Positions 869-39,189 of a DNA stretch of 39,282 bases are shown piece after piece. Position 1 is the first letter of the stretch, and each line of letters begins with the position of its first letter. The notes under the pieces were generated by a model. That model saw only the letters and a list, made by a program, of their open reading frames with translations, ran no database searches and was not told the origin of the DNA. This stretch comes from a virus. Where the stretch lies: the IMG/VR virus record IMGVR_UViG_3300037468_000340, positions 1 through 39,282 of that record, one strand, 5' to 3'. The translations under genes and the position numbers were made by a program.

Positions 869-904
869 AATTAAGACTATAATATGAATTAAGACTATAA
901 TATG
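869..904 (+). repeat. 18-bp tandem duplication abutting a start codon
   Basis: The 18-bp unit AATTAAGACTATAATATG is present twice head to tail (869-886 and 887-904). Both copies end in ATG. The second ATG is the start of the giant adhesin gene. The first opens a two-codon frame (ATG AAT TAA). The repeat therefore duplicates the translation start region. Confidence 0.9.
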
Positions 905-3900: not shown

Positions 3901-6900
3901 TGATTGTAGTTTAACTGGAACTCTAGATTTAACAGGACTTACAGGATTAGGAGGTGATTTTCAAGTTGTTAATGATAATGATATGTATTCTCGCTCAAAT
4001 ATTACACAGATACTTAATCCAACATCATCACAACTATTTCAAAGTTATTGGGCGCCAAAATGTAATTTAACTGGAACTTTAGATGTATCAGGACTTATAA
4101 ATCTATGTAATGATTTTAGAGTTGAAAATAATCTAAATCTTACAAGAATTCTTTTACCGACTCTTAATCAAGAAATTATTTATTTTGATGCTTTTAATTG
4201 TGGTCTAGATTTATTTACCGTTGATGATATATTTGCAAAACTTGACACATATTATAGTAGTAATTCGCCGACAATTGGTTTAACACTTTCTCTTGCTGGA
4301 GGAACTAACTCTCCTCCAACAGATTGTTGGGATAATGTAAATATAGTTAGTTTACAATCTATATTTGGAACAGCGGGCAAAACTTTAAATATAGGGATCA
4401 ATGCAAGTTGTGGTGAACCTCCAATTGGAACAAAAATACTTGAATTTACTACAAACGCTTTAACATATGAATTTGATCCTACATTTACAGTTGTTGATGG
4501 AACACTTAACTGGAATTTAGATGATAGTTCTAGTTCTGTAAATGCAAATGCCTTTAGTCATACATATGCATCATCAGGAAATAAAACAGTTAAAGTATAT
4601 ACTGGAACAACTGATGGATGCACAAGTATTATTCAAATAACTATGGATGAAGATAATCTAGTTGGAACATTAAATGTATCTAATCTTACACAATTAGGTG
4701 ATGTATTTAATGTTGAAGGTAATTCAAATCTTATACAGATACTTAATCCAATTTCATCTGAAGTGTTTACAGATTATAATGCAGGTAATTGTGATTTAAC
4801 AGAAACTTTAGATATATCAGGACTTACAGGATTAGGAGGTAATTTCAGTGTTATTAGTAATAATAATCTTCAATATATACTTAATCCAATTTCATCTCAA
4901 ATATTTACACAATATCTTGCGGGTTTTTGTCAATTGACCGGAATTTTAGATATTACAGGACTTACAGGATTAGGCGGGGCATTCGTAGTTAATAATAATT
5001 CAAATGTTACACAGATACTTAATCCAGATTCATCACAAGCATTTACATATTATTGGGCTTACAGTTGTGGTTTAAATGGAACATTAGATGTTTCTGGACT
5101 TGATAATTTAGGTGGAGATTTTAGAGTATATAGTAATTCAAATCTTCAATATATACTTAACCCAGTATCGTCACAAATATTTAATCATTATTATGCTTCT
5201 ATGTGTAATTTAATAGGAACATTAGATGTATCTGGACTTTCTGGATTAGGCGGTGATTTTCTTGTTTATAATAATATAAATCTTCAATATATACTTAATC
5301 CAACTTCATCTACAATATTTACAGAATATTTCGCATTTAATTGTAATTTAACTGGAACTTTAGATATATCAGGGCTTGTTAATTTAAGTGGAGATGTTAG
5401 AGTTTGGAATAATCCAGATCTTACACATATATCATTACCTACTATAAATCAACAATTTACAGTGTTTGATGCATCAGGTTGTGGATTAGATTTAGCAACA
5501 GTAGATGACATATTTGCTAAATTAGATGCATGGTATAGTGGTACTGGTCATGAACCATCTGAAAATTTAATGGTTAATGTTGCATCGGGAACTAATTCAC
5601 CGCCAACTGATTGTTCATTAAATGCAAATATAGTTAATTTAACTTCTATATTTAATAGTGCAGGACAGACATTCACATATTATATTAATTGTAATTCACC
5701 CGGTCCTATAATGGAATTTACAACTAATGTTCAAATATCAGGTGGAGCAAAATATGGTTTACTTTATAATTGGTATGCTGCTATTGATGCAAGTAATATA
5801 TTAGCAAGTGGGTGGCATTTACCAAGTGTTGATGAATTTTCTACACTTATGCTTTATTTAGATCCGGTCGGTTCTTCTGATAATAATGTAGCGGGAGGAT
5901 CTTTAAAAGAAACAGGATTTACATATTGGGATTCTCCAAATGTAGGAGCAACAAATTTATCTAAATTTAATGCAAGAGGATCTGGGTTTAGATTAGCCCA
6001 TATTTTGGTTTCTCAAGATTTTTATTACATAAAATATCTAACAACTTTTTGGACAAGTACAGATTATGGTTATGTAGCACCTTATGGTTATAATTGTGCG
6101 GGAATAGGTCAAACATCAACTATTGACGCAAATTTTTTAATTGGGGGGGCCTATGTTTGTTTGCCATATTCTATAGGTTGTCCTATTCGTCCAATTAAAG
6201 ATTCTACTGATTTAATAGATGGAGAAACAGGTACATATATTGGTAACGATGGAAAAACATATAGAACAATTTGTATAGATAATCAAGAATGGTTAGCAGA
6301 TAATTTATGTGAAACAAAATATCGTACAGGTGATAATATACCAGAAATAACGAATTATACAGAATGGGCAGCATTAACAATAGGAGCTTTATGCGCTTAT
6401 AATAATACTTGGAGTAATGCTTTTACAGATGTGATAGTAGACCCATTTGATCCAACATTATTGGTTATTGATGGAACTCTGAATTGGAATTTAGGAGATA
6501 GTTCTACATCTGTAAATGCAAATAGTTTTAGTCATACTTATCAACTTACAGGAAATTATATAGTTAAAGTATATTCTGGAACAACAAACGGAAGTGATAG
6601 TATCACTTATATAAATATGGGTGATGATAATTTAATTGGAACTTTAGATATTTCTATCTTAACTAATTTAAGTCAACTTTATATTCAAAATAATCCTAGT
6701 CTTAATAAAATAATTTTACCTACAATTAATCAACAATTTATAGAATTTGATGCGTCAGGATGTGCATTAGATTTAACTACAGTAGATGATATATTTACTA
6801 AATTAGATGAATGGTATAGTGGTGTTGGTCATGAACCATCTGCAGATTTAATAGTTAATGTTGCAAGTGGAACTAACTCACCTCCAACAGATTGTTGGTT

Positions 6901-11103: not shown

Positions 11104-14100
11104 ATGTCTAAAAAAATAATATTTGATTCTTTAATACCGTTTTTTGATAATAGGCATATGTTAAATTTTATAACAAATGCTTCGGTTTTTGACCCAACAT
11201 TTATAGTATCACCTTCTACAGGTGTACTTCGTTGGAATTTAGGTGATACTTCCACAAATGTAAATGCTAATAGTTTTACTCATATTTATAGAAATTATAG
11301 AAGAAATAAATTAGTTAAAATATATGAAGGGACAACTGGAGGGGTAAATGATATTATTGGCATTAATATGGAAAATGATGGTATAAATGGAACATTAAAT
11401 TTTTTACAATTAAGTAATTTAGGAGGAGATTTTAATGTAAACGATAATCCACAACTTACCAGAATACTTAATCCTAATTCATCACAAATATTTACATCTT
11501 ATCTGGCAAATAATTGTAATTTAAGAGGAATTTTAAATATTGATGATCTTACAGGTTTAGGGGGAAATTTTCAAGTTTTAAATAATATAAATCTTACTAA
11601 CATATACAATCCAATATCATCACAAATATTTAGTTTTTATGGCGCATATAATTGTAATTTAACCGGAACTTTAAATCTAAGAGGATTAACAAATTTAGGG
11701 GGGATTTTTACTGTTTATAATAATCCAAATCTTACATATATATTTAATCCAGCTTCTCCACAAGTATTCACATATTATGAGGCCTATGATTGTAATTTAT
11801 CCGAAACTTTAGATATATCAGGATTTACTAATTTAGGGGGAATTTTGAGAGTTTATAATAATCCTAATCTTAAACGGATACTTAACCCCGTTTCATCTCA
11901 AGAGTTTACAGATTATCGTGCATATGATTGTAATTTAACTGGAACTCTAGATGTATCAGGACTTACAGGATTAGGTGGAGAATTTGTGGTTAATACTAAT
12001 CCGGATCTTACACAGATACTTAATCCAGTTTCATCTCAAGTGTTTGAAAATTATATTGCATATCAATGTGATTTAACTGGAACATTAGATCTTACAGGAC
12101 TTACTAATTTAGGTGGATATTTTATTGTTCATACAAACCCAAAACTTACAACAATACTTAACCCAGATTCATCACAAGCATTTGGTTCATATGTTGCAAG
12201 TAATTGTGATTTAACCGGAACTCTAGATTTAACAGGACTTACAGGATTAGGAAGAGAATTAGATGTTCGTAATAATCCAAATCTTACAACAATACTTAAT
12301 CCAGATTCATCAAATATATTCATATATTATTGGGCACATGATTGTAGTTTAAATGATACATTAGATGTATCGGGACTTATTAATTTAGGCGGTGATTTTA
12401 GAGTTCAAAACAATACAAATCTTACTCATATATCTTTGCCAACAATCAATCAACAATTTGTAGTTTTTAATGCTAATAATTGTGCATTAAATTTACAAAC
12501 TGTAGATGGTGTATTTTCAAATTTAGATTCATGGTATAGCGGAGTTGGTCATGAACCATCAGAAAATTTAACAGTTAATGTTGCAGGTGGAAATAATTCT
12601 CCTGTTACAGACTGTTGTTTAAATATAAATATAGTTAATCTAACATCAATATTTAATGGAGCTGGAAAAACTTTCACATATTATATTAATTGTAGTACAG
12701 CAGAACCTTCTACTGGAGAAAAAATACTTCAATTTACAACTAATGCTTCAACCGACGCATTTGATCCGATATTTACAGTTTCTTCAGGTATACTTAATTG
12801 GAATTTAGGTGATGCATCCAATAATGTAAATTCAAATAATTTTAGTCACACGTATATAAGCGGTGGAAATAAAACTGTACAGGTATTTACTGGAACAACA
12901 GATGGATCTGCAGATATTACAGCAATTAATATGGATCAAGATAATTTGATTGGAACATTAGATATATCTTCTCTTAACAATTTAAATAACTTTAATGTTG
13001 GTTATAACACAAATCTTACACAGATACTTAATCCAGTTTCATCTCAAGTATTTACATTTTATAATGCAACTTATTGTGATTTAACTGGAATTCTTGATGT
13101 ATCAGGACTTACAGGATTAGGTGGAAGTTTTTATATTCATTATAATCCAAGTCTTACACAAATACTTAATCCAATTTCATCTCAAGTATTTGGATTATAT
13201 GACGCAGAAAATTGTAATTTAACTGGAACTATAGATGTATCAGGACTTACAGGATTAGGAGGATTTTTTGATGTTAATGAAAATCCGAGTCTTACATCAA
13301 TACTTAATCCAGATTCATCTCAAGTGTTTACATATTATCGTGCATACAAATGTGATTTAACTGGAACTCTAGATGTATCAGGACTTACAGGATTAGGCGG
13401 GGTTTTTGCAGTATATAATAATCCAAATCTTACACATATAACATTACCAACAATTAATCAACAATTTACATCTTTTGATGCTTCAGGTTGTGGGTTAGAT
13501 TTAGCAACAGTGAATGATATATTTGCAAATTTAGATGCATGGTATAGTGGAGTTGGTCATGAACCATCTGCAGATTTAACAGTTAATGTTGCAAGTGGTA
13601 CTAACTCACCTCCAACAGATTGTTCATTAAATGCAAATATAGTTAATTTAACGTCTATATTTAATAGTGCAGGACAAACATTTACATATTATATTAACTG
13701 TAATTTATTTCCAGAATATTATGGTTGTGCAAGTTGTGGACCTTATTTTGCAACACCGTCACCAACTGGAGGATTTTTAAGTGCTGATGTTTTAACTTCT
13801 TCATCTTGTGAAATAGGAGATTATGTAATAGAATGGAATTTAAATTCTTCACAAGGAAGTACAGTATTTGTTTCTGGAGTAGGAACTGATCCATCTATTC
13901 AATCTCAACATCCATTTATAGATGAAATTGTATTTGCCGGAACATTATATCCAATCATTAAATATGTATATTTAGATAGTATTAAATATAGTGCTTACCA
14001 AACACCTGACGCAAGATATAGTCCAGATTTTACAACTTGTTTAGATCCTGTAATAATTGAACCAATAACTTGTGATACTTCACGTGGTGTAAACCCACTA

Positions 14101-15657
14101 TATTTATATGATGTATCTTATAATAATATAGCAGATAGTGGTGCAAATAAATCAAGAACTTTTAAATTTGATATATGCCCAAGTATGGATTATTTGGCAT
14201 GGGAATTTGACGGTTATGATGTAACAGAACAAATAAAAATATATTATTGTACATCTACTAATGTAGACGGAAGTATACTTGATAATTTTGTACATGGAAC
14301 ATATGGTACTAATAATACGTATTTAACACAAAATCTATATCCAACAGATTATCCAAATAATCCAAGAATATATTATAGAACAGCACAAGATGGAATTTAT
14401 GGTATTAGATATATTACAAAATTAGATAATATACCTTATTCATCAGGTGATTATTTAAAAATACAAATAATTGCAAGTGTATATGATCCGACTAACAATA
14501 ATACACGATGGGATTTAAGATTAAAAGCATTATCATCTAGTGATATAAGTTGTAATTGGATTTATGATAGTGATATTTCTAAAATTATTGATGATCCATC
14601 TATAAGTTATGTTGTATCTTCTACAAATTGTCATTATAAAATAGAATATGATACATTAGAAAATGCACCGCAACCCATCAAAAATTCAATTACTTCACCG
14701 TTTATATGGAAATATTTACATTTAGGTACAACTGCTATTAGTACGCCAGCTGTAACATCTTTAACAAATCCTGTAAGAATAGGATTATATTGGTATACTC
14801 AGAGTGCTGCTGAAGTAGTATATACAGGAGGACATAATTCTACTAGTTGTGTAAATTGTAATCCTGGCCAATCAATTACGTATACTTTACAAACATCAGA
14901 TGTATCAGCCGTAGTTATAACTTGTACAGACACATCTGATTATGATGCATTTGTATCGGGTATAACTTATGTAAAAAATTCTTCTCGATATTCACAATGG
15001 TTAACAGTTCCCGATACAAGTATACAATATTATTCATATTATGAAACTTATATTAAAAATGCTAGTTCTTGTGGTGATAGTGCAATGGGCTATGATTATT
15101 TCTTCACCCATTTTTCAGCTGATGTTAGTTGGAATCCTGATACTAAAACAATAACGATGCCTATAGTTTTACTCAACAATAATATTGTAGATGTATCTTG
15201 TAACCCAAATTATAGTAGAGCGCAAACACTTGTAGGTCAAATTGGTTTCCAAACAATGCCAAATCCGGCAGGTAGATTACCATTTGGTGTAGGAGTTTTA
15301 CCATTTACTACTCAAACAAGAGTACCTGATCCTATTGGTGGACTTTGGTTATATAATTCGGATTCTTATGCTACTAATGTAACTGCATATTATACATATC
15401 GTATACATGATGTGATGTTAAATGATATATGTGATCTTACTCCTTATGGATTTATGTATGATATGTCAATAGGGGGGACAGCATCAACTTTTTCTAATTA
15501 TTGGACTTTATTTAAATATTGGGATAAATTTACACTTCTTGATACTGCTACTCCTGAATCTAGATTAGCAAACTGGAGATTAGAAAGAAGAAAATTCTTG
15601 AGAACAGATATTGCTACTGATACAGAATGGGAAATAGTATATGATGTAAGTACTTAA
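11104..15657 (+). CDS. Second modular adhesin: PKD-like/LRR modules with a large unique C-terminal region
   Basis: 1517 residues. Two modules of the kind seen at 902-9250 make up the first ~866 residues: PKD-like unit, 8 leucine-rich repeats and cap, then PKD-like unit, 4 repeats and cap. Residues ~867-1517 are different. They begin with a Cys-rich stretch (YGCASCGPYF), continue through several predicted beta-sandwich segments with scattered Cys (LYLYDVSYNN, DICPSMDYLAWEFDGYD, CVNCNPG), and end in a hydrophilic ERRKFLRTD...EWEIVYDVST tail. I do not recognise this part; it may hold the virion attachment or a second binding head. A strong terminator follows 21 nt downstream, so this is the last gene of the upstream transcription unit. 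Confidence 0.75.
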   Translation: MSKKIIFDSLIPFFDNRHMLNFITNASVFDPTFIVSPSTGVLRWNLGDTSTNVNANSFTHIYRNYRRNKLVKIYEGTTGGVNDIIGINMENDGINGTLNFLQLSNLGGDFNVNDNPQLTRILNPNSSQIFTSYLANNCNLRGILNIDDLTGLGGNFQVLNNINLTNIYNPISSQIFSFYGAYNCNLTGTLNLRGLTNLGGIFTVYNNPNLTYIFNPASPQVFTYYEAYDCNLSETLDISGFTNLGGILRVYNNPNLKRILNPVSSQEFTDYRAYDCNLTGTLDVSGLTGLGGEFVVNTNPDLTQILNPVSSQVFENYIAYQCDLTGTLDLTGLTNLGGYFIVHTNPKLTTILNPDSSQAFGSYVASNCDLTGTLDLTGLTGLGRELDVRNNPNLTTILNPDSSNIFIYYWAHDCSLNDTLDVSGLINLGGDFRVQNNTNLTHISLPTINQQFVVFNANNCALNLQTVDGVFSNLDSWYSGVGHEPSENLTVNVAGGNNSPVTDCCLNINIVNLTSIFNGAGKTFTYYINCSTAEPSTGEKILQFTTNASTDAFDPIFTVSSGILNWNLGDASNNVNSNNFSHTYISGGNKTVQVFTGTTDGSADITAINMDQDNLIGTLDISSLNNLNNFNVGYNTNLTQILNPVSSQVFTFYNATYCDLTGILDVSGLTGLGGSFYIHYNPSLTQILNPISSQVFGLYDAENCNLTGTIDVSGLTGLGGFFDVNENPSLTSILNPDSSQVFTYYRAYKCDLTGTLDVSGLTGLGGVFAVYNNPNLTHITLPTINQQFTSFDASGCGLDLATVNDIFANLDAWYSGVGHEPSADLTVNVASGTNSPPTDCSLNANIVNLTSIFNSAGQTFTYYINCNLFPEYYGCASCGPYFATPSPTGGFLSADVLTSSSCEIGDYVIEWNLNSSQGSTVFVSGVGTDPSIQSQHPFIDEIVFAGTLYPIIKYVYLDSIKYSAYQTPDARYSPDFTTCLDPVIIEPITCDTSRGVNPLYLYDVSYNNIADSGANKSRTFKFDICPSMDYLAWEFDGYDVTEQIKIYYCTSTNVDGSILDNFVHGTYGTNNTYLTQNLYPTDYPNNPRIYYRTAQDGIYGIRYITKLDNIPYSSGDYLKIQIIASVYDPTNNNTRWDLRLKALSSSDISCNWIYDSDISKIIDDPSISYVVSSTNCHYKIEYDTLENAPQPIKNSITSPFIWKYLHLGTTAISTPAVTSLTNPVRIGLYWYTQSAAEVVYTGGHNSTSCVNCNPGQSITYTLQTSDVSAVVITCTDTSDYDAFVSGITYVKNSSRYSQWLTVPDTSIQYYSYYETYIKNASSCGDSAMGYDYFFTHFSADVSWNPDTKTITMPIVLLNNNIVDVSCNPNYSRAQTLVGQIGFQTMPNPAGRLPFGVGVLPFTTQTRVPDPIGGLWLYNSDSYATNVTAYYTYRIHDVMLNDICDLTPYGFMYDMSIGGTASTFSNYWTLFKYWDKFTLLDTATPESRLANWRLERRKFLRTDIATDTEWEIVYDVST
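11380..13430 (+). repeat. Leucine-rich repeat arrays (8 + 4 units, about 138 bp each)
   Basis: These are the same LTGTLDVSGLTGLGG-type units as in the giant adhesin, in two blocks separated by a cap and a PKD-like unit (about 12415-12900). The first three units are more diverged (for example NLRGILNIDDLTGLGG). Later units are almost identical in DNA to units in the upstream gene, which gives long direct repeats between the two genes. Confidence 0.85.
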
Positions 15658-15759: not shown

Positions 15760-18042
15760 ATGGCAACAGCAACACCATTTGTTAAACGTATGCGGACACA
15801 AGGGGGAACTATTTATACGTTTAGTTCTGCTCTTGAAGATATAGGTTTAAATATAAATGAAAGAAATAACGTGGTGAAAATGTCACACTACGCTTTGTTA
15901 AATATTCCTTCTATTGATGCTCCTGATAATTTACAACAAAATAGATTCAATGTACTTGCAATTCCGGGTGCATATCAATCATTTTTAAATAGTGGAAGTA
16001 TTAAAGATGGAAGAATCATAGTTGCAGAAAGTTTTCAAAACTATGCACTCAATCTTGAAGTTAATCTTTTAAGACAAGGAACATATAATGCAGCATTAAG
16101 TACTACTATATCAGAAAGAGTATTCTGGAAATGGTTAAAAGAAACTGGAGCAATTCGTTGGCAGTCATATGATACATCAATTGGATTATATTGGCAAGAA
16201 GAACGTGATACAGATTCTTCAATTGGATATAATTCTGTAGTTAAATGTATAGGGCAAATTAGTGCGGGTTCTGTTCGTACAGATACATTTGGAACTTATA
16301 ATGAAACCTATGTTTTAGTTCCTACATCATTCGGACAAACACCTGTATATTTTAAACAAGTCGAAGATGATAACTATTATCATGGATTATCTATTTTAGA
16401 AGGAAACACAAATATATATGGAAGAGAAACATTTCTTAGACCACATCCTGATGCACTAGATTTTAAAGCATATTATGATTTAGCAGATTCAAGTACAGAA
16501 GTAGTTGGTGTTGATATGTATTATGATGCAAGTGATGGTTCAGGATATCAAACTGGTTGGTGGTGGACAGCTGAAGGATTATATTTAGATGTAGATAACA
16601 ATTATTATATAGATACATCAACGTATATAGATTCTGGTATATACAATTTTAATCTTCAATATAATTCTGTATTAGAATACAAACGATCAAATGTTGATTG
16701 TATATCTATCGAATATGACTTGGATAACTTAAAAACTATATTTAATGATCCTGCTCTTACTTTTGACAGATTAGCAATTGATCCGGCATATGTATTAGAT
16801 GATACATTTGATTTCAATGCTATCATGATATATTATTCGGTTTATAATAAAACTCTTGATAAAGTACTTGCAACTAATCTTTTAGGTATTTTATTCTTAG
16901 ATGCTCCAAGTGGAAATACACAAGACTATCCTTTAAATCAAATAATATTACCATCTATTACTAAAATACAAAGTGGGCCTACAGGATTTGGAACTTCATA
17001 TTCATTTAGACTTAACATTAAGTCTGATTATATGTTAGATGACACGGCAGCAACAATAATGGATGAATCAACATCTGATCAAATAGTATTAGAAGATTTT
17101 ACAGATGTATTTGATAGTTTAGGAAAAACGCTTGCTATTTTAAATCAACATACTGGCACTATAAATTATATTACAGAACAATATTTAGACATAACATCAC
17201 AACAAACTAATATACTAAATTCAATTATTGCGTTAGAACAATTACTTAATGATATTAATAGTATATCAGGAACAGATAATGCAATACCTATGTTTTCTAC
17301 ACAATCTATTCTTACTGAATCTTCAATTTATATGGATGATGGAAGAATAGGATTTTTCAATAAATATCCAATTTATCCTGCACAATTTGATGTAAGTGTT
17401 AAAGTTATGGATCTTATAATTGAAAATGCAGTAAGAGACACAGGAGGAAACATTTTATTAGGATATGGTTCACCATTACAAATTGGGTGTTCAACTAATT
17501 ACAGAGATATTACATTTTATACAGGTGGACCAAGACCTGTAATGACAATAGATACATCTGGACATGTTATTTTTGATTCATCAACATCAATAGTATCTTC
17601 TACAATTATTATTGAAAGTTCATTAGGAGATTCATTTTACTGGGATAATGGAATGCTTGAGGCAAGTGGCACAGGTGGAGGTACACAAGGAATTCAAGGT
17701 ATTCAAGGTGTAACAGCTGGGGGTACACAAGGTATTCAAGGTAGACAAGGGACTCAAGGAACACAAGGAAGACAAGGCACTATTGGTACTGGGTTGCAAG
17801 GAAATCAAGGTACTGCTGGAAGCGTTCAAGGAACACAAGGAATACAAGGTATTACTGGCGCTGGAACACAAGGAACTCAGGGTACTTCTGGGGGTGGAGC
17901 TAGTTTACCAGCAAATTGGTCATTTGTAGCAAGTGGAAATAATTTAGTATTAAAATATATAGACGTAAGTTTATTTATGTTTACTACTGATGGAAGTATA
18001 TTATCAAAAGGAGAAATAACAGCATTTGCAAATATAGTATAA
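15760..18042 (+). CDS. Conserved tail structural protein with C-terminal collagen-like fibre
   Basis: 760 residues. Residues 1 to about 440 look like a conserved structural domain (MATATPFVKRMRTQGGTIYT at the start, many aromatic beta strands, WWWTAEG near 267). A helical stretch follows near residues 440-500 (TDVFDSLGKTLAILNQ...LNSIIALEQLLNDIN), probably a trimeric coiled coil. After a beta-rich linker and an SGTGGG cassette comes a Gln-rich collagen-like segment (bases 17680-17898). The last ~45 residues form a tip (ANWSFVASGNNLVLKY...KGEITAFA) of a type common in phage fibres. Inferred role: tail or baseplate-attached fibre, with the N-terminal part as anchor. It is the first gene after the terminator, so a promoter should lie in 15717-15759, but I cannot identify one in that A/T-rich stretch. 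Confidence 0.7.
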   Translation: MATATPFVKRMRTQGGTIYTFSSALEDIGLNINERNNVVKMSHYALLNIPSIDAPDNLQQNRFNVLAIPGAYQSFLNSGSIKDGRIIVAESFQNYALNLEVNLLRQGTYNAALSTTISERVFWKWLKETGAIRWQSYDTSIGLYWQEERDTDSSIGYNSVVKCIGQISAGSVRTDTFGTYNETYVLVPTSFGQTPVYFKQVEDDNYYHGLSILEGNTNIYGRETFLRPHPDALDFKAYYDLADSSTEVVGVDMYYDASDGSGYQTGWWWTAEGLYLDVDNNYYIDTSTYIDSGIYNFNLQYNSVLEYKRSNVDCISIEYDLDNLKTIFNDPALTFDRLAIDPAYVLDDTFDFNAIMIYYSVYNKTLDKVLATNLLGILFLDAPSGNTQDYPLNQIILPSITKIQSGPTGFGTSYSFRLNIKSDYMLDDTAATIMDESTSDQIVLEDFTDVFDSLGKTLAILNQHTGTINYITEQYLDITSQQTNILNSIIALEQLLNDINSISGTDNAIPMFSTQSILTESSIYMDDGRIGFFNKYPIYPAQFDVSVKVMDLIIENAVRDTGGNILLGYGSPLQIGCSTNYRDITFYTGGPRPVMTIDTSGHVIFDSSTSIVSSTIIIESSLGDSFYWDNGMLEASGTGGGTQGIQGIQGVTAGGTQGIQGRQGTQGTQGRQGTIGTGLQGNQGTAGSVQGTQGIQGITGAGTQGTQGTSGGGASLPANWSFVASGNNLVLKYIDVSLFMFTTDGSILSKGEITAFANIV
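17680..17898 (+). repeat. Collagen-like Gly-x-Gln repeat tract
   Basis: Short in-frame repeats of the type CAAGGTATT encode GTQGIQGIQG, GRQGTQGTQG and similar triplets, interrupted by GVTAGG and GTGLQG. The tract resembles bases 1-50 of the fibre gene at the left edge. It could allow slippage or recombination that changes fibre length. Confidence 0.85.
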
Positions 18043-30563: not shown

Positions 30564-31283
30564 ATGTCATATTTTACGGCAAATAATAAATATTTAATAG
30601 CAAATGAAAAATACCTAACAGGGACAATACCTCTTGATGTAAGTATACCTTTTTATGGATTATTATATAATTGGTATGTAGTAGAAACTAATATTTTAGC
30701 ACCCATAGGATGGCATGTACCATCAGCATCAGAATTTGAAATTTTAACAAATTTTTTAGGAGGTGAACTTGTTGCAGGGGGCAAATTAAAAGAAGCTGGA
30801 ACAACACATTGGGTTGAACCAAATGAAGGCGCAACAAATGAATCGGATTTCACAGGACTTCCAAGTGGTTTACGTTATGAAAGTACAGGAAGTGGAATGT
30901 TTGATTTAATAACTACTGAAGGTTATTTTTGGACATCTACCGTTAATTTAGATAATACTGGTGCAGATTCATTTATTCTTGAAACCAATACTGAAAGTTC
31001 AAACATAAATCCAGAAGTATTTTTAAATTTCGGTTTTCCTGTTAGATGTATACGAGATACTTCATCTGGTTGGATTGTTGGTGAAACCATAACAGATTAT
31101 GATGGTAATACATATAATACAATTAAAATTGGAAATCAAATTTGGACTAAACAAAATTTAGCAGTTACCCATTATAATGAAGGTACTATAATTCCTGAAG
31201 TAACAGATCCAGATACATGGATTAATTTATCAACAGGAGCTTTATGTGCTTATGATAATGATTGGAATTATGTATTTGTTTAA
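30564..31283 (+). CDS. Small FISUMP-domain virion protein
   Basis: 239 residues. After a 30-residue N-terminus (MSYFTANNKYLIANEKYL) that resembles the start of the propeller protein at 9281, the whole protein is one FISUMP domain: YGLLYNWYVVE, GWHVPSASEFEIL, GGKLKEAGTTHW, FTGLPSGLRY, GYFWTST, GFPVRCIRD and a C-terminal KIGNQIWTKQNLAVTHYNEG segment ending CAYDNDW. FISUMP is a C-type-lectin-like domain common in Bacteroidota, which suggests ligand binding. The same domain occurs twice in the giant adhesin. Inferred role: minor receptor-binding or accessory fibre protein. Confidence 0.7.
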   Translation: MSYFTANNKYLIANEKYLTGTIPLDVSIPFYGLLYNWYVVETNILAPIGWHVPSASEFEILTNFLGGELVAGGKLKEAGTTHWVEPNEGATNESDFTGLPSGLRYESTGSGMFDLITTEGYFWTSTVNLDNTGADSFILETNTESSNINPEVFLNFGFPVRCIRDTSSGWIVGETITDYDGNTYNTIKIGNQIWTKQNLAVTHYNEGTIIPEVTDPDTWINLSTGALCAYDNDWNYVFV

Positions 31284-33087: not shown

Positions 33088-33555
33088 GTGAAATTAGTAC
33101 GTGAACATATTAATGAAAAATTTACCGAAGAATCAGATCCTATAAAAGATATGAATATAGGTATAATGCATGATATTAGAGAATTTGTAAACAAAGTTGA
33201 AGGCATTAATTTATACAGTAAAGAAAATCTTTTATTATATTGTGCTAAGCATGATAAAAATGAATTTGTAAAATTTTTAATAAATGATGGGGCCGATATA
33301 CATGCATATAAAGATATAGCATTAAGTTGGGCTGTTCAGAATAAAAATTTAGAATTAGCTAAAGTTTTAATAGATAATGGGGCCAATGTAAATGTAAATT
33401 CTACATATACATTATTAAGTATAGCAATGTATAATGAAGATAAAGCTATGATTAAATTATTGAAAGATAATGGTGCTATAGAAAAAAATGAGAAACAATT
33501 ATTAAAAGATATTAAAAAGGAAGGACGTAGACTTTTCAAAATCAATAAAAAATAA
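33088..33555 (+). CDS. Ankyrin-repeat protein with putative capsid-targeting leader
   Basis: 155 residues, GTG start. The N-terminus MKLVREHINEKFTEESDPIK and the following DMNIGIM match the leaders of the proteins at 36536, 37706 and 38089. Residues ~46-133 contain about three ankyrin repeats (LLYCAKHDKNEFVKFLINDG, then ALSWAVQNKNLELAKVLIDN and a diverged third). The C-terminus is Lys-rich. Ankyrin repeats mediate protein binding. The leader resembles the T4 internal-protein signal MKTYQEFIAE, with an INE where T4 has the cleaved IAE. I infer a protein packaged in the head and delivered to the host, possibly to bind a host target. Confidence 0.6.
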   Translation: MKLVREHINEKFTEESDPIKDMNIGIMHDIREFVNKVEGINLYSKENLLLYCAKHDKNEFVKFLINDGADIHAYKDIALSWAVQNKNLELAKVLIDNGANVNVNSTYTLLSIAMYNEDKAMIKLLKDNGAIEKNEKQLLKDIKKEGRRLFKINKK

Positions 33556-33576
33556 ATATAATATAACGTATTCATT

Positions 33577-34161
33577 ATGAGTCTATTAAATGCAAAATTA
33601 AACCAATTTTCGATTTGGTTCCCGAAAGATTTCTTTTATCCTGAAATAAGAGAAAGATGGACTCCTGTTGTTAAACGTTTAAAATTACAATATCAATCAC
33701 TTGAGGATTTTTTTAATGCATCCGTACAATCAGTTACATTTCCAGAAGTAAGATTGGAACCTGTTATTCAACCACAAACAATGTTTCAAATCAGATATAG
33801 AGGAGGAAAGGAACTTGAACCCATTCTTGATAAGATGATCACAGTTACATTTAAATTAAATGAAGGATTCATAACTTATTGGATGTTATTTGAACAAATA
33901 GAAATGTTTATGAAATATAAAGATACATCACCGTTTTGGCCATCAATGTATATAAGTTTTCTTGATCATCATGGTTATGAATTAGTTGTTTTTGAATTTA
34001 AAAAATTAATTCCTATTGCATTATCACAATTTAATGTAAATTATGCTACAGTAGGTGCAGATTTTAATACATTTACACTAAATCTAGCATATAACAGATA
34101 TAAAATACAAAGACGATTAACTAATGAGATTAATGAAGTGGTCGCTAATGATCAAATATAA
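33577..34161 (+). CDS. Probable tail tube protein (T4 gp19/gp54-like layout)
   Basis: 194 residues. The order of elements matches contractile-phage tube and tube-initiator proteins: an N-terminal segment ending SVQSVTFPEV, a loop with QIRYRGGKELEPI, the strand KMITVTFKLN, a helix near YWMLFEQIEMF, the strand pair MYISFLDHHGYELVVFEFKK, the proline-led turn PIALSQFNVNYAT, and a closing strand TFTLNLAYNRYKIQ. In T4, gp19 forms the tube through which DNA passes. This is the best evidence in the window for a contractile tail. A baseplate tube-initiator paralogue is an equally possible reading. Confidence 0.5.
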   Translation: MSLLNAKLNQFSIWFPKDFFYPEIRERWTPVVKRLKLQYQSLEDFFNASVQSVTFPEVRLEPVIQPQTMFQIRYRGGKELEPILDKMITVTFKLNEGFITYWMLFEQIEMFMKYKDTSPFWPSMYISFLDHHGYELVVFEFKKLIPIALSQFNVNYATVGADFNTFTLNLAYNRYKIQRRLTNEINEVVANDQI

Positions 34162-34190
34162 AATAAAATATATAAAATAAAAATAATAAC

Positions 34191-34511
34191 ATGGAAAAAT
34201 TTCCCACATATTATGATCTAAAAAATTCTTCAAAAATATTTGAATCTGAAGAAATTAAAGGATTTACGTTAGAACAAGTGCAAGAAGCTGAAAGAACATA
34301 CAATATTATAGTTGAAAAACTAGAAAAAGGTGAAGAAATAGATGAAGGTTTATTTTCAGGACTTCTTGTAGGTGGTGCATCAGCATTAGTTGGACCAAGT
34401 ATTATGAGAGCAATTTGTAGAGTTTTAGGAATTCAAGAAGGTGGTGCTCTTTATAATTTATTAACAAGTAAACTAGTTTTAGCAAGTGTTGGTTATACTA
34501 TTGGAAAATGA
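34191..34511 (+). CDS. Small protein with Gly-rich hydrophobic C-terminal half
   Basis: 106 residues. The N-terminal half is charged and helical (FTLEQVQEAERTYNIIVEKL). The C-terminal half is Gly/Ala/Leu-rich and membrane-like or amphipathic (LFSGLLVGGASALVGPSIM, then LLTSKLVLASVGYTIG). The start MEKFPTYYDLKNSSKIFESE looks like a short leader and may be a variant of the N-terminal leaders seen further right. It follows the tail-tube-like gene by 29 nt. In T4 small prohead core proteins are encoded near gp19, which is a loose analogy only. Its last 33 bases overlap the end of the convergent nuclease gene. Function unknown. Confidence 0.55.
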   Translation: MEKFPTYYDLKNSSKIFESEEIKGFTLEQVQEAERTYNIIVEKLEKGEEIDEGLFSGLLVGGASALVGPSIMRAICRVLGIQEGGALYNLLTSKLVLASVGYTIGK

Positions 34512-35486
34512 TAGATATAAATTAATAAATTCATTATAATCTTTATTAATAATTATTAAATAATCATATCCTTCTTTTATAACTACCTTTTTCTTTAATT
34601 CTATTTCATTTTTATCTTTCTTTGCTAAATATGAATTTTTAATTTCAACTATAAGATTTTTAGATGGAATATAAAAATCCGAATGATAAACTTTATTTTT
34701 TTCATTCATTTTATATTTTATTGAATGACCATTTTCAATATCTATTTTATCATAAAAATTATCTAAAAAATCAAGTTCATAAGATCCCTGATACGTTAAA
34801 TTAGTATTTTTATATTGATGAATTAAAAATCTAGTTTTATATCCCTTATTTAAAATATTTATATCTTGAGATGGATTTTCAACACCATAATGTATTAAAC
34901 ATGATTGTTTAATTTTTTCTATATTACAATAATTTTTATTGTTATATTTTTGTTGTTTTGTTTTATTTCCTTTTTCTCTAATTTCTAAATTTTGCAACGA
35001 ACATTCAACACCATATCGTTCTTTACATGTTTTTTTAGTTTTTTCTTTAATTTTTATGTTTTGTTGCGAATATTCTACACCATATTTTTTTAAACAAGAT
35101 TGTTTACTTTTTTGTTTTATTTTTTCTGCTTGCCAAGGATTATTTACACCATATTTTTCTTGACAAGTTTGTTTAGATTTTTCTTTTATTATAATAGATT
35201 TAGATACATGTGTGACTCCGTATTTTTTTAAACATGTTTGTTCACGCAATCTATTTGTGCATTCTTTAGAACAACATTTTTTATATCCAATTTTAAAATT
35301 TATAAATATAGTTTCTTTTTTACATATTTTACATAAATCCCTTTCATCTTTTATCCATTTATAATAATAATTTTTATAATTATGTATTTTATTTATATGA
35401 TAACTTAATGTTTTTTTATAAATGAATGTTTTATCACATTCTTCACAAATAAATAATCCTTGTTCATTTTTTCTAAATTCTTTCAT
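34479..35486 (-). CDS. Zinc-finger / PD-(D/E)XK nuclease, probable free-standing homing endonuclease
   Basis: 335 residues. The N-terminus has a C2H2 finger (C14-x2-C17-x12-H30-x4-H35) and a second Cys cluster (C52, C55, C71, C72, C76). Residues ~84-215 carry about six ~23-residue repeats with a central YGV (KYGVNNPWQ, KYGVEYSQQ, HYGVENPSQ) and Lys-rich helices, probably DNA-reading modules like those of phage homing enzymes. The C-terminus fits a PD-(D/E)XK core: GSYELDF (E237), HSDFYIP (D270), IVEIK (E281, K283) and a YLIIINKD strand. It lies opposite to its neighbours and, unlike them, has a Shine-Dalgarno-like AAAGGA. Both facts suggest a mobile insertion between structural genes. Cleavage target unknown. 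Confidence 0.7.
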   Translation of the reverse strand: MKEFRKNEQGLFICEECDKTFIYKKTLSYHINKIHNYKNYYYKWIKDERDLCKICKKETIFINFKIGYKKCCSKECTNRLREQTCLKKYGVTHVSKSIIIKEKSKQTCQEKYGVNNPWQAEKIKQKSKQSCLKKYGVEYSQQNIKIKEKTKKTCKERYGVECSLQNLEIREKGNKTKQQKYNNKNYCNIEKIKQSCLIHYGVENPSQDINILNKGYKTRFLIHQYKNTNLTYQGSYELDFLDNFYDKIDIENGHSIKYKMNEKNKVYHSDFYIPSKNLIVEIKNSYLAKKDKNEIELKKKVVIKEGYDYLIIINKDYNEFINLYLSFSNSITNTC

Positions 35487-35494
35487 GATTTCTA

Positions 35495-35500
35495 TCCTTT
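35495..35500 (-). promoter_or_regulatory. Shine-Dalgarno-like site of the nuclease gene
   Basis: On the minus strand AAAGGA lies 8 nt before the ATG of the nuclease gene. The other genes of the window show only A/T-rich leaders, so this site is exceptional here and supports a separate origin for the nuclease. Confidence 0.5.
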
Positions 35501-35518
35501 ATTTTAAAATATATAGAT

Positions 35519-35586
35519 TATAGTAGGACAGCATTTAAATCTATCCGAATGTTGATTAATGTTTCTGCATTAATCTAACTACTATA
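35519..35586. other. Candidate structured RNA or DNA element between divergent genes
   Basis: An 8-bp closing stem (TATAGTAG 35519-35526 with CTACTATA 35579-35586) encloses two further hairpins: CATTT/GAATG (35532-35551, one G-T pair) and GATTAATG-TTTCTG-CATTAATC (35554-35575). Together they can form a three-way junction. An alternative hairpin GGACAG/CTATCC (35526-35546, one mismatch) competes with part of it. It has no U-tract like a terminator and is not a tRNA. On the minus strand it would be in the 5' leader of the nuclease. Function unknown. Confidence 0.4.
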
Positions 35587-35648
35587 TTATATATATTTAT
35601 TTATTTTTTATTGAATATATATTAAATAAAATAAATAAGAATATAAAA

Positions 35649-35831
35649 ATGAAAAAAGTTAAAGAATCTCTTAATGAGAATATTAAATTTTCAGGACATG
35701 AATTTACACAATTTCATTTAAAAGATGGATATGTATATGCTTCTAAAGAAGGTATACTTGGTGATAATAAAACTTTTATTTCTTGGGATTTTATCAAGCA
35801 ATTAATGAAAAAATTTACTATCATATTTTAA
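35649..35831 (+). CDS. Small leader-bearing protein, first gene of the resolvase operon
   Basis: 60 residues. It starts MKKVKESLNENIKFSGHEF, a variant of the leader seen at 33088 and 36536 with LNE at residues 8-10. The remainder (FHLKDGYVYASKEGI, then FISWDFIKQLMKK) is a small alpha/beta stretch that I do not recognise. An A/T-rich stretch precedes it, so the operon promoter probably lies in 35587-35640, but no consensus is evident. Its TAA shares one base with the next ATG (TAATG), so the two are translationally coupled. Confidence 0.55.
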   Translation: MKKVKESLNENIKFSGHEFTQFHLKDGYVYASKEGILGDNKTFISWDFIKQLMKKFTIIF

Positions 35832-36331
35832 TGAAAGCAAAATTTATATACGAAAATATTAACGAATCAAAATTCGTAAGTAATTTTCGTCCCAAAATGA
35901 ATGTTAAAACAAAAGATAATGAATATCATATAATAAAAGTAGAGGATCACAGTCAGAAATATGATCTTATTTATGTTATTGATAATCATGGAAAGAAAAA
36001 AATGATTGCATCAGATTGGTTAGAACAAAATGGAACTATAATACCAACAGAAAGACAAAAAAGAAAATTAGAATCAAAAGAACCATCAATGACTACACGA
36101 GAGTATATATGTGAAATTAAAGATGCAATTGACGGGTTAAAACAAACTATAGATGATGATGAAGACCCAGGTAGTTATATTTATGATTCTGCAGAAAGTA
36201 TGATTTACGATCCTAAATTACTTAATTATCTTCAAAGGAAATATAAAAGAGAATATGGTCAAATAACAAATCGTGAAAGTGAATTAATTGAATTGCTTGC
36301 AAATGATATATCAAATAATTATTATAAATGA
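35831..36331 (+). CDS. Leader-bearing protein of unknown function
   Basis: 166 residues when started at 35831. An ATG at 35783 is in frame but lies inside the previous gene. The start at 35831 forms a TAATG junction and gives an N-terminus, MKAKFIYENINES, that fits the local leader family with INE at residues 10-12. A small beta region follows (YHIIKVEDHSQKYDLIYVID), then a basic linker (PTERQKRKLESKEPS) and a helical C-terminus with an acidic DDDEDPG loop. Its end overlaps the next gene by 4 nt (ATGA). Possibly another head-packaged protein; no known domain recognised. Confidence 0.6.
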   Translation: MKAKFIYENINESKFVSNFRPKMNVKTKDNEYHIIKVEDHSQKYDLIYVIDNHGKKKMIASDWLEQNGTIIPTERQKRKLESKEPSMTTREYICEIKDAIDGLKQTIDDDEDPGSYIYDSAESMIYDPKLLNYLQRKYKREYGQITNRESELIELLANDISNNYYK

Positions 36332-36534
36332 AAATAATTAAAGAATATATTAATTGGAAAGGAGATTGGATACCTGATAAAAAAGATCCATTTGATAAAG
36401 CTCGTGAATATGATATTAAAAAAGATTTTTCTAACGAATTAATAGTTATTATAAAAAAATATCAAGATAAATTATCAAATAAAATCGTACTGGATGTTTT
36501 AAATAATATAATAAATAAAAAATTTAATCTTTAA
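36328..36534 (+). CDS. Small protein with diverged leader
   Basis: 68 residues. The start MKIIKEYINWKGDW matches the leader pattern up to YIN but has W in place of the Glu, so the supposed protease site is missing. DPF at residues 19-21 may correspond to the DPI of the longer leaders. The rest is helical and Lys-rich. The start overlaps the previous gene by 4 nt and the stop lies 1 nt before the next TTG start, so it is part of a tightly coupled operon. Function unknown. Confidence 0.55.
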   Translation: MKIIKEYINWKGDWIPDKKDPFDKAREYDIKKDFSNELIVIIKKYQDKLSNKIVLDVLNNIINKKFNL

Positions 36535-36535
36535 A

Positions 36536-36982
36536 TTGAAATTACTTCGAGAACATATTAATGAAAAGTTCACTGAAGATTCAGATCCCATTCATGATAT
36601 GAATATAGGAATAATTAAACTTATTAATGATTGGATTAATACACCTAACAATCAACATCATATAAAAAATTATAATATTACAAAGGATTTAAAAATTGAT
36701 GCAGATAGTATTGATATTTCATGGGAGTATATGGATATAATTCCAGAATATATTCGTTTTGGAAAAGTGAATGAATTTTTTTCGTGTTTTTTCAATGAAA
36801 AAACTAAATTACACCAATTACCAGAATATATAGGTAGTAAACTAACAATTTATACTAATAAAAAAATAGATTTTACTAAAAAAGATATATTAAAATTTTG
36901 TCAAATATATGAAAGAAACATAAAAATACAAACATATAATTATTCGGGATATACTAATTTTACCTATTTAACAATAAAATGA
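36536..36982 (+). CDS. Leader-bearing protein of unknown function (TTG start)
   Basis: 148 residues. TTG is chosen as start because it gives MKLLREHINEKFTEDSDPIH followed by DMNIGI, nearly identical to the leaders at 33088 and 37706, and sits 1 nt after the previous stop codon. The remaining ~120 residues contain KLINDWINTP, a beta stretch (LPEYIGSKLTIYTNKK), and FTKKDILKFCQIYERNIKI. No known domain is visible. Its end overlaps the resolvase start by 4 nt (ATGA). By the leader argument it may be a packaged internal protein. Confidence 0.6.
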   Translation: MKLLREHINEKFTEDSDPIHDMNIGIIKLINDWINTPNNQHHIKNYNITKDLKIDADSIDISWEYMDIIPEYIRFGKVNEFFSCFFNEKTKLHQLPEYIGSKLTIYTNKKIDFTKKDILKFCQIYERNIKIQTYNYSGYTNFTYLTIK

Positions 36983-37605
36983 ATATTATTGGAATAGATT
37001 TTTCTATAAATAAACCTGCTGCTTGTGTTTTTACAAGCAGCAAATATTATTTTTATAGCTGGCCATATGAATTTTCAGAAAAATATCTTTATATTTATAA
37101 AACAAGTGGTGTTACGATTATTAATCGTATAGATAATAAAGATAAAGGAGAAAGTCTTACTACTAAAATGAGATATGAAGTTGAAAATGCTAAATATATT
37201 GCAAATTTGATCACTGAGACGCTTTTGTGTTATCTTAGTAGAGATACCTATCTCGCATTCGAGGGTTTATCTTACGGCTCCTCAGGCGACGTGGGAATAC
37301 AATTAGGAGGTTACAAATATATGTTGATGCATGCATTAACTCAACATGTTCCTTTAGAAAATATGTTCACATATTCCCCTATCACAGTTAAAAGTATAGC
37401 AGGATGTGCAAAAAAAGGAATGAAAAAAACAGAAATGATAAACGAGTTTATCAGAAATGGTCCAATTTGTAAATTTCGTTTATCATTATTCGAAAAAAGA
37501 GAATTATTTATGAAAAGAGGGGAAAGAAATTGGATAGATCTTGTAGATGATTGTGTAGATTCTTATTTCATATTAGAAACTCTTAGGAAAAAAGAGAATC
37601 TTTGA
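36979..37605 (+). CDS. RuvC-like Holliday junction resolvase (RNase H fold)
   Basis: 208 residues. The acidic motifs of the RuvC family are in order: MNIIGIDFSINKPAACVF with D7 on strand one, LAFEGLSYGSSGD with E95, and the C-terminal DLVDDCVDSYFILE with D190/D191 and D194. Between them, TVKSIAGCAKKGMKKTEM corresponds to the Lys/Gly-rich junction-binding segment of RuvC. Such phage resolvases cut four-way and branched DNA made during recombination and replication so that it can be packaged (the role of T4 gp49). The gene is the last of a five-gene overlapping operon, which links the leader proteins to late DNA processing. I see no sign of inactivation. Confidence 0.8.
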   Translation: MNIIGIDFSINKPAACVFTSSKYYFYSWPYEFSEKYLYIYKTSGVTIINRIDNKDKGESLTTKMRYEVENAKYIANLITETLLCYLSRDTYLAFEGLSYGSSGDVGIQLGGYKYMLMHALTQHVPLENMFTYSPITVKSIAGCAKKGMKKTEMINEFIRNGPICKFRLSLFEKRELFMKRGERNWIDLVDDCVDSYFILETLRKKENL

Positions 37606-37612
37606 TTTCTAC

Positions 37613-37657
37613 TCTAGATCTAGAAATTAGATTTCCTTTGGAGCTTAAGTACTTAAG
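37613..37657. other. Two perfect palindromes 32 bp apart between convergent genes
   Basis: TCTAGATCTAGA (37613-37624) and CTTAAGTACTTAAG (37644-37657) are perfect palindromes. The first also lies inside a longer hairpin, ATTTCTA/TAGAAAT at 37605-37627. Their centres are 32 bp apart, about three helical turns. The 100-nt gap also holds short A- and T-runs (about 37688-37704) that might help termination. This could be a terminator pair or a protein-binding site; the sequence does not decide. Confidence 0.45.
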
Positions 37658-37705
37658 TTATATGGATGTCGGTGTTTGAGTTTTGTTAAAAATGTTAAAT
37701 TTTTG

Positions 37706-38092
37706 TTAATATTCACCTCCGCCTTCTATCATCCATGATTTTATATGTGGATACTTATTTTTTAAAAATAAATGAAAGTTATTAGGATGAACTCCCGTAC
37801 TATCTTTATCTTCTATAGATGATAAATATTGGTTTGCATATTGTGCTAGTTTATTCCAATATTTAACACCAAGATATATTCCTGTTCCTCCCGGACTATT
37901 AAGAATATCAGTGAGAATATCATCTAGTGGACGATCAGGATCAAGAATTCCCTGTAAATTATATGAAAGCCAATTATACATTTCATTTTGTGTATTAAAT
38001 TTTCGACGTATATATATTCCTATACCCATATCGTGAATGGGATCTGAGTCTTCAGCGAATTTCTCGTTAATATGTTCTTTAACTAATTTCAT
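37706..38092 (-). CDS. Leader-bearing protein of unknown function
   Basis: 128 residues. It starts MKLVKEHINEKFAEDSDPIH followed by DMGIGIYI, nearly the same leader as 36536 on the other strand. The body is helical (IYIRRKFNTQNEMYNWLSYN, LDDILTDILNS, GVKYWNKLAQYANQYLSSIE) and ends HIKSWMIEGGGEY. No known domain is recognised. Its ATG overlaps the stop of the upstream ankyrin gene by 4 nt (ATGA), so the pair is coupled. The leader suggests packaging with the proteins described above. Confidence 0.6.
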   Translation of the reverse strand: MKLVKEHINEKFAEDSDPIHDMGIGIYIRRKFNTQNEMYNWLSYNLQGILDPDRPLDDILTDILNSPGGTGIYLGVKYWNKLAQYANQYLSSIEDKDSTGVHPNNFHLFLKNKYPHIKSWMIEGGGEY

Positions 38093-39189
38093 TTATCTTT
38101 TCTATAATCAATTATTTCATAATTATTTTCTTTAAGATATTTTAACATATCATCTATTTCAAATTTATTATGATATATTTTTTCCCAAGCATGTTTTTCT
38201 TTATTAAAATTAAATTTAAAATATTTTAAAAGATTTCTTGCAATATAAGTTCCTTTACCCATAAGACTTATTATATAGAATGGTTCTTCTAATAATTTAA
38301 CATAAATTTTTAATCCTGTACCATCATCTACTCTTGGATATTCAGATATATCCCATTTACCAATAGCTGGAGAATTTGTAGGAGTTCCTGGATTTTTACG
38401 TTTTTCAATAACATATCCAGGTATTTTTTCTATTTCTGTAAATAATTCTGAAGCAATTTTTTGCCAATGTTCTAAAGTACGTGGACGTGCTGATTTCCAT
38501 CCTTTATGTATACTACTCCATTTAAATGAATATTTTTTAATAATATTTTTTATATCAAATGTATTGCCAGTTATTACAATTTCATAATGATCTTTTACCA
38601 TAAAAGGTTTAAGTTCATAATATACAATTTTAGCACCTATACCCATTGACTTAATAGGATCTACATCATCTTCAGTGAACTTTTCATTAAGACTTTCTTT
38701 AATTTTCTTTCTTTTTTCTTTAGCGATATGATCTTTAAGGACTTTAACCACTTCAGTGTGTCCATTACTACATGCCCATTGTAAAGCTAAATCATCATTA
38801 GCATGTACATCTGCTCCTGCAGCTAATAAGACTTTAACCACTTCTGTGTGACCATTATTACTTGCCCACCGTAATGCATAATTATCTTTAGTATGTACAT
38901 CTGCACCTGCAGCTAACAAAACTTTAACCATTTCAGTGTGTCCATACTCACTTGCCCACCGTAATGCATAATCATCATTAGCATGTACATCTGCTCCTGC
39001 AGCTAACAAGTATTTAACAAAATCTAGTTTTCCATAATAAGCACTAAAAATTAGAGCATTATCTTTATCTATAAAGGGTTGATCTATAGATTTCATCCAT
39101 AACTTTATCTGATGTATCATACCAATGTTCATGTCAGCTATAGGATCTGAATCTTGAGTGAACTTCTCGTTTATGAATTTAGCTCTCAC
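38089..39189 (-). CDS. Ankyrin-repeat protein with two leaders and a duplicated W-motif C-terminal domain
   Basis: 366 residues, GTG start. Residues 1-8 (MRAKFINE), followed by KFTQDSDPIADMNIG, form the leader. Residues ~43-157 are four ankyrin repeats of 30 residues (ALRWASEYGHTEMVKVLLAA and near copies). A second leader-like sequence lies inside, at about 162-186 (IKESLNEKFTEDDVDPIKSM). The C-terminal ~180 residues hold two copies of a motif of about 38 residues: ITGNTFDIKNIIKKYSFKW...KGW (206-231) and LMGKGTYIARNLLKYFKFNF...HAW (309-335). The layout suggests fusion of two leader-bearing proteins, or a polyprotein cut at the internal LNE. Function is unknown; ankyrin repeats imply protein binding. 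Confidence 0.65.
   Translation of the reverse strand: MRAKFINEKFTQDSDPIADMNIGMIHQIKLWMKSIDQPFIDKDNALIFSAYYGKLDFVKYLLAAGADVHANDDYALRWASEYGHTEMVKVLLAAGADVHTKDNYALRWASNNGHTEVVKVLLAAGADVHANDDLALQWACSNGHTEVVKVLKDHIAKEKRKKIKESLNEKFTEDDVDPIKSMGIGAKIVYYELKPFMVKDHYEIVITGNTFDIKNIIKKYSFKWSSIHKGWKSARPRTLEHWQKIASELFTEIEKIPGYVIEKRKNPGTPTNSPAIGKWDISEYPRVDDGTGLKIYVKLLEEPFYIISLMGKGTYIARNLLKYFKFNFNKEKHAWEKIYHNKFEIDDMLKYLKENNYEIIDYRKDK
38719..39063 (-). repeat. Ankyrin repeats encoded by 90-bp tandem DNA repeats
   Basis: Four 30-codon units. The central copies are nearly identical in DNA, for example the shared strings TGTACATCTGC and CTGCAGCTAA on the + strand at 90-bp spacing. That points to recent tandem duplication. 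Variation is mostly at the ankyrin loop and helix-surface residues (ASEYGH, ASNNGH, ACSNGH). Confidence 0.8.

Follow-up and report, generated by a model that had tools for sequence, protein, structure and literature searches.

In phage T4, a sequence of 10 residues suffices for the loading of internal proteins and gp21 cuts after L/I-x-E (PMC9026906). In the next host, a restriction enzyme is inhibited by IPI, one of these internal proteins; according to a proposal already made in a review, sequences of this kind enable T4-like phages to load a variety of proteins (PMC9026906). In the giant phages SPN3US and phiKZ, many head proteins are cut by the prohead protease after x-x-E and several are ejected with the DNA (PMC5694885, PMC10052503). 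Their propeptides are often long and are discarded, unlike the leaders described here, and the word polyprotein is absent from both of these papers (PMC5694885 and PMC10052503). No report of leader-bearing phage cargo polyproteins or of the DPI block described below was found in the literature searched. The loading principle is already known; what appears to be new, as far as was looked, is the scale, together with the polyproteins and the block predicted to be retained.

The window (the whole stretch of viral DNA that was analysed, 39,282 nt) is a 39-kb fragment without head genes. It was collinear with the genome of a relative, G001 (405 kb), and the tail genes were 34-80% identical. The leader shared by several of its proteins had two parts, namely a capsid-targeting sequence of the T4 type, with [I/L/V]-x-E at its end, and a following block KFTEDSDPIxDMGIG. 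T4 IPI, IPII, IPIII and Alt are alike in having a short M-K leader that ends in [I/L]xE before the unrelated bodies of small proteins, and IPII and IPIII carry MKTYQEFIAE. The T4 system is also alike in its gp21-type protease, scaffold and gp23-type capsid protein, which were found here in the relative's genome. However, T4 has a handful of leaders compared with about 90 copies here, plus polyproteins with internal sites, and the conserved 15-residue block past the site, predicted to stay on the mature protein, is not a feature of T4. In addition, P1' of the leaders was Lys whereas T4 internal proteins and the capsid protein of this lineage have Ala, and protease and scaffold formed one polypeptide. 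In this lineage of huge T4-like phages, internal head proteins of the T4 kind have very probably been expanded into cargo polyproteins that can be cleaved.

Leader copies in the window

A search for the DPIxDMxIG pattern in the DNA gave exactly four matches in the window with 0.00 expected in shuffles. The matches fell in the ORFs at 33088, 36536, 37706(-) and 38089(-), where the preliminary description of this DNA had already placed four full leaders. The ORF at 33088-33555 (+) has a GTG start, a leader MKLVREHINE (33088-33117) and a block KFTEESDPIKDMNIG (33118-33162), and is a predicted stand-alone cargo protein with an ankyrin body. It is flanked by tail genes on both sides and has a syntenic orthologue at G001 182148-182618. 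Another predicted stand-alone cargo protein at 36536-36982 (+) has a TTG start, a leader MKLLREHINE (36536-36565) and a block KFTEDSDPIHDMNIG (36566-36610); its body belongs to a large family, some members of which are LRR-like. The ORF at 37706-38092 (-) carries MKLVKEHINE (38063-38092) and KFAEDSDPIHDMGIG (38018-38062) before a helical body with approximately 30-48 relatives, and is likewise predicted to be a stand-alone cargo protein. Pfam identified the ankyrin bodies of 33088 and 38089. It gave no match for the bodies of 36536 and 37706, each of which is a family of its own with many relatives.

The ORF at 38089-39189 (-), with a GTG start, a leader MRAKFINE (39166-39189) and a block KFTQDSDPIADMNIG (39121-39165), contained a fifth leader copy that was absent from the preliminary description. 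This copy is internal and reads ESLNE-KFTEDDVDPIKSMGIG, with a predicted protease site LNE at 38683-38691 (-) and a block KFTEDDVDPIKSMGIG at 38635-38682 (-). The ORF is therefore a predicted two-module polyprotein in which the ankyrin module is followed by a second module opened by this block.

Three further starts had been listed as leaders. The short ORF at 35649-35831 (+) with MKKVKESLNE, a weaker candidate based on sequence only, and the ORF at 35831-36331 (+) with MKAKFIYENINE kept the [I/L]NE end and had no DPI block. The leader-like start at 36328-36534 (+), MKIIKEYIN-W, has no P1 glutamate and fails the cleavage rule.

Several other genes of the window were recorded. The DUF7487 protein at 34479-35486 (-) has a C2H2-type finger and is encoded on the opposite strand, with late genes on either side; its relatives occur at many loci of these phages and it is possibly a homing nuclease. 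Two very large repeat proteins of 2,782 aa (902-9250) and 1,517 aa (11104-15657) have PKD domains and show the pattern LTGTLDVSGLTGLGG...NPNLTQILNP in many nearly identical repeats. The 2,782-aa protein also has Fibrobacter succinogenes major domains, and a small separate protein with such a domain is encoded at 30564-31283. Collagen-like G-x-Q-G repeats were found at 15760-18042 and 1-864, in presumed fibre proteins.

Conservation of the leader

A total of 302 DPI cores were gathered with no constraint on the upstream sequence; exact duplicates were removed and near-duplicates were kept, so that the counts are not independent. Matches of the type RPDLLAYDLYG...DPIFDMRIG came from an unrelated protein with the DPI string alone in common and were removed as decoys. 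E was present at the expected P1 in 283 of the 302 cores, and in all 283 of these P3 was I, L, V or M, residues which together make up 24% of the genome's amino acids. P2 was variable, with N in 185 of these and Y, F, D, S or other residues in the remainder. The 19 exceptions mostly had an insertion separating the site from the core.

The set comprised 193 N-terminal copies and 109 internal or other copies, approximately 100 of them internal. The seven residues upstream were conserved in N-terminal copies at 1.3-2.0 bits each. In internal copies they fell to 0.4-1.2 bits while P3, P1 and the block were kept, and the two functions therefore separate: the targeting part would thus be needed once per chain, and site and block before each module.

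Conservation was not confined to the part of the leader predicted to be removed. The block lies after the predicted cut and was the most conserved part of the leader in the 302-core set, and these proteins are therefore not plain members of the T4-type capsid-targeted internal head proteins. They share with that class the short N-terminal [I/L]-x-E leader and the unrelated mature bodies, as well as a leader site that equals the predicted substrate sites of the phage's own protease.

Polyprotein arrangement

Up to six modules of approximately 100-130 aa were encoded in a single ORF, with [ILVM]xE in front of every module and a median module length after the core of approximately 100-125 aa. Of 100 internal modules, 76 fell in families that were also found at protein N-termini. 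The arrangement could be followed between the window and G001. The window ORF 35831 corresponds to the second of two modules in G001:177664-178440, the homology beginning at ENINE/ESLNE. Likewise, 36536 corresponds to the second of the two modules encoded by G001:176885-177667, and the same RuvC-like gene adjoins. Both occupy the same locus as their G001 counterparts, and homology begins at or just before the site. In arrangement, these ORFs match viral polyproteins, as their units are split by predicted viral-protease sites and stand alone in relatives.

The leader ORF of L049 comprises three parts, namely a nucleotidyltransferase-like one, a small module and one with DUF6267 homology. The first of these had no Pfam match, and its naming is the authors' reading of a GSYKPMHAAH stretch. 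In T4-like cyanophages, a DUF6267 gene adjoins a cytidyltransferase gene. Here, by contrast, the nucleotidyltransferase-like part and the DUF6267 homologue, which forms the C-terminal part, share an ORF in which a cut site is predicted to separate them; no significant similarity was found between the L049 first part and the cyanophage cytidyltransferase. A nucleotidyltransferase-like N-terminal part was also seen in the leader ORF L037:3150-5051(-) (G001 167659-169563). After its internal site, GSAGKKDISGDIDL recalls a second nucleotidyltransferase, with no match in Pfam.

Protease, scaffold and capsid protein

The preliminary description had named a gp21-like prohead protease as something to be looked for in the genome, its absence counting against the leaders. 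No prohead protease was detected in the 39-kb window by a search whose controls gave no signal either. In G001, the nearest relative, a Peptidase_S77 (gp21-type) protease was found (E 2e-17) in one polypeptide with a long, scaffold-like C-terminal region, and its gene adjoins that of a gp23-type capsid protein. Both proteins were also present in other relatives. The T4 motifs GELNHP and SSRG, which contain the catalytic His and Ser of this family, aligned with GELDHP and SSRA in the G001 protease.

The G001 fusion protein contained 11 [ILVM]NE compared to 1.3 in shuffles, an approximately 8-fold enrichment, and the fusions of nine relatives contained 9-12 compared to 1.1-1.8 expected. T4 gp22, which is degraded by gp21, served as a positive control with 16 sites compared to 5.8 expected. 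The capsid protein of all lineage members contained HALNE[A/S], with a predicted site LNE|A. One of these capsid proteins reads LNEAEMGG where T4 has LTEAEIGG; the likeness is local, and the two sites were not in register in a global alignment. The leaders therefore match the specificity deduced for the phage's own protease from the [ILVM]NE-rich scaffold and the capsid LNE|A, which bears out the earlier proposal that INE and LNE leaders fit a gp21-type rule. The DPI block is absent from the scaffold and capsid sites and is thus not required for cutting as such. Its role may lie with the released proteins, or it may help to load or present the modules.

Two other proteins with [ILVM]xE motifs were observed. 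A 181-aa protein at L140:17439-17984(-) (G001 157439-157984) has five [ILVM]NE compared to 0.5 expected and is a candidate second scaffold or core protein. The small protein encoded at 34191-34511 of the window is conserved among relatives. Its N-terminal half contains IFE and IDE and its C-terminal part is hydrophobic; it could be another substrate of the protease.

Bodies and structure models

The preliminary description had noted unrelated bodies behind one leader, and this was extended to approximately 100 body clusters, 75 of them singletons. Pfam, PHROG and PADLOC searches on 114 modules returned mostly ankyrin, and few bodies had recognisable domains. Single matches to an AbiA C-terminal HEPN-like domain and to MzaA were too weak for naming functions. 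In AlphaFold2 models, the body of 37706 and the ankyrin module were well folded, and no match to the 37706 fold was found in a PDB search. The leader and the linker between modules were modelled at low confidence with little structure, which would fit an accessible site and proves nothing.

Spread among relatives

A pattern scan with decoys removed gave at least approximately 55 viral contigs with at least one true leader, several of which probably belong to one phage. A profile built from 20 leaders matched 88 times in G001 and 59 times in G005 (83 kb), nearly all at E < 1e-6. The number in syntenic G001 is far beyond that of the preliminary description, which had suggested looking for further leaders elsewhere in the genome. 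The strict leader set of G001 comprised 53 ORFs and approximately 10% of the coding sequence, and 26 leader ORFs of G005 lay within its first 22 kb. The more distant G018 and G024 carried a variant leader, M[KR]A[KR]F[VI][FY]E-xxxFERGxDPxxxMGIG, and G021 encoded a predicted 1,276-aa ankyrin polyprotein in which a related block was repeated four times. In several relatives that share this capsid protein and protease, leaders were few or absent; most of these relatives are short fragments.

By capsid protein, the nearest named relatives are the Lak megaphages and the Tenacibaculum phages PTm1/PTm5 (48% and 30% identity, respectively). Their capsid proteins have LNE or INE near the N-terminus, and a prohead core scaffolding protein and a protease are annotated in PTm1. 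The leader profile had no significant match in Lak-A2, in LR756500 and LR756501 (two huge-phage genomes) or in PTm1. A tblastn search of 50,697 phage records found no leader with a 34-residue query, which is a weak one. Matches to the leader pattern in Flavobacterium genomes (L120, L121) did not lie in a matching ORF and were put down to chance.

Discussion

The earlier proposal of a T4-like capsid-targeting leader is supported by the protease of G001 and by the scaffold and capsid sites, and has to be modified since the main conservation lies after the cut and many copies lie inside polyproteins. In the mechanism proposed here, the N-terminal capsid-targeting sequence (MKLVREHINE, MRAKFINE or similar) would bring the precursor into the prohead. 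There, the gp21-type protease, made as a fusion to the scaffold, would cut after [I/L/V/M]-x-E, mostly [I/L]NE, using the same site as in the scaffold and the capsid protein. One targeting sequence could import up to six modules, and the site before each would yield separate small proteins that begin with the retained block KFTEDSDPIxDMGIG. By the parallel with T4, the bodies, of approximately 100 sequence families, would be injected together with the DNA and serve as effectors in the host, and an anti-defence role may be conjectured.

The unit [ILV]xE-KFTEDSDPIxDMGIG could instead be an uncut small domain or docking motif, e.g., a scaffold-, capsid- or tail-binding peptide, with the likeness to a gp21 site as a by-product and the multi-module ORFs as ordinary multidomain proteins. 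Such a domain would agree with the block being the most conserved part and occurring both N-terminally and internally, and with capsid and scaffold sites that manage without it. However, a P2 that varies while E is invariant and P3 always aliphatic is the signature of a protease site, and this site stands on its own in the scaffold and the capsid protein. The 35831 module, which has no block, retains [I/L]NE, and the same modules are split or fused across related genomes; an uncut domain is thus considered unlikely. That the leader directs proteins elsewhere, to the host membrane, a replication compartment or the tail, with any cutting unrelated to the head, is more improbable still. Leader genes do also occur among tail genes (33088 lies between two), but the site matches the predicted substrates of the head protease itself and in length, M-K start and [I/L]xE end the leader is similar to the targeting sequence of T4.

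The least credible alternative is a mobile or recombining DNA element that copied 5' ends, its peptide having no selected function. The number of copies (88 in a single genome) and the location of many of them in neighbouring genes are what such an element might leave, but this origin was rejected by the codon test. Between leader copies, third codon positions differed 3-4 times more than second positions and codon choice was roughly that of the genome; since third positions vary freely in this way, selection acts on the peptide. Position-specific amino-acid conservation also holds across divergent copies. Cleavable cargo polyproteins derived from T4-like internal head proteins are therefore preferred over these alternatives.

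If this is right, it would be the first phage cargo delivered as protease-cleaved polyproteins, as far as the searched literature shows. The tag would mark injected proteins of uncultivated huge phages and give approximately 100 candidate effector families, among which anti-defence proteins may hide. The approximately 300 natural signal variants would make the choice and loading of T4-like internal proteins testable. A more far-reaching reading, to which an even chance is given, is that about a tenth of the coding capacity consists of head-packaged polyproteins that are cut in the capsid into dozens of small proteins, with the shared N-terminal tag serving a later step such as portal passage or action in the host. 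If true, these phages would carry a modular, swappable arsenal of injected proteins.
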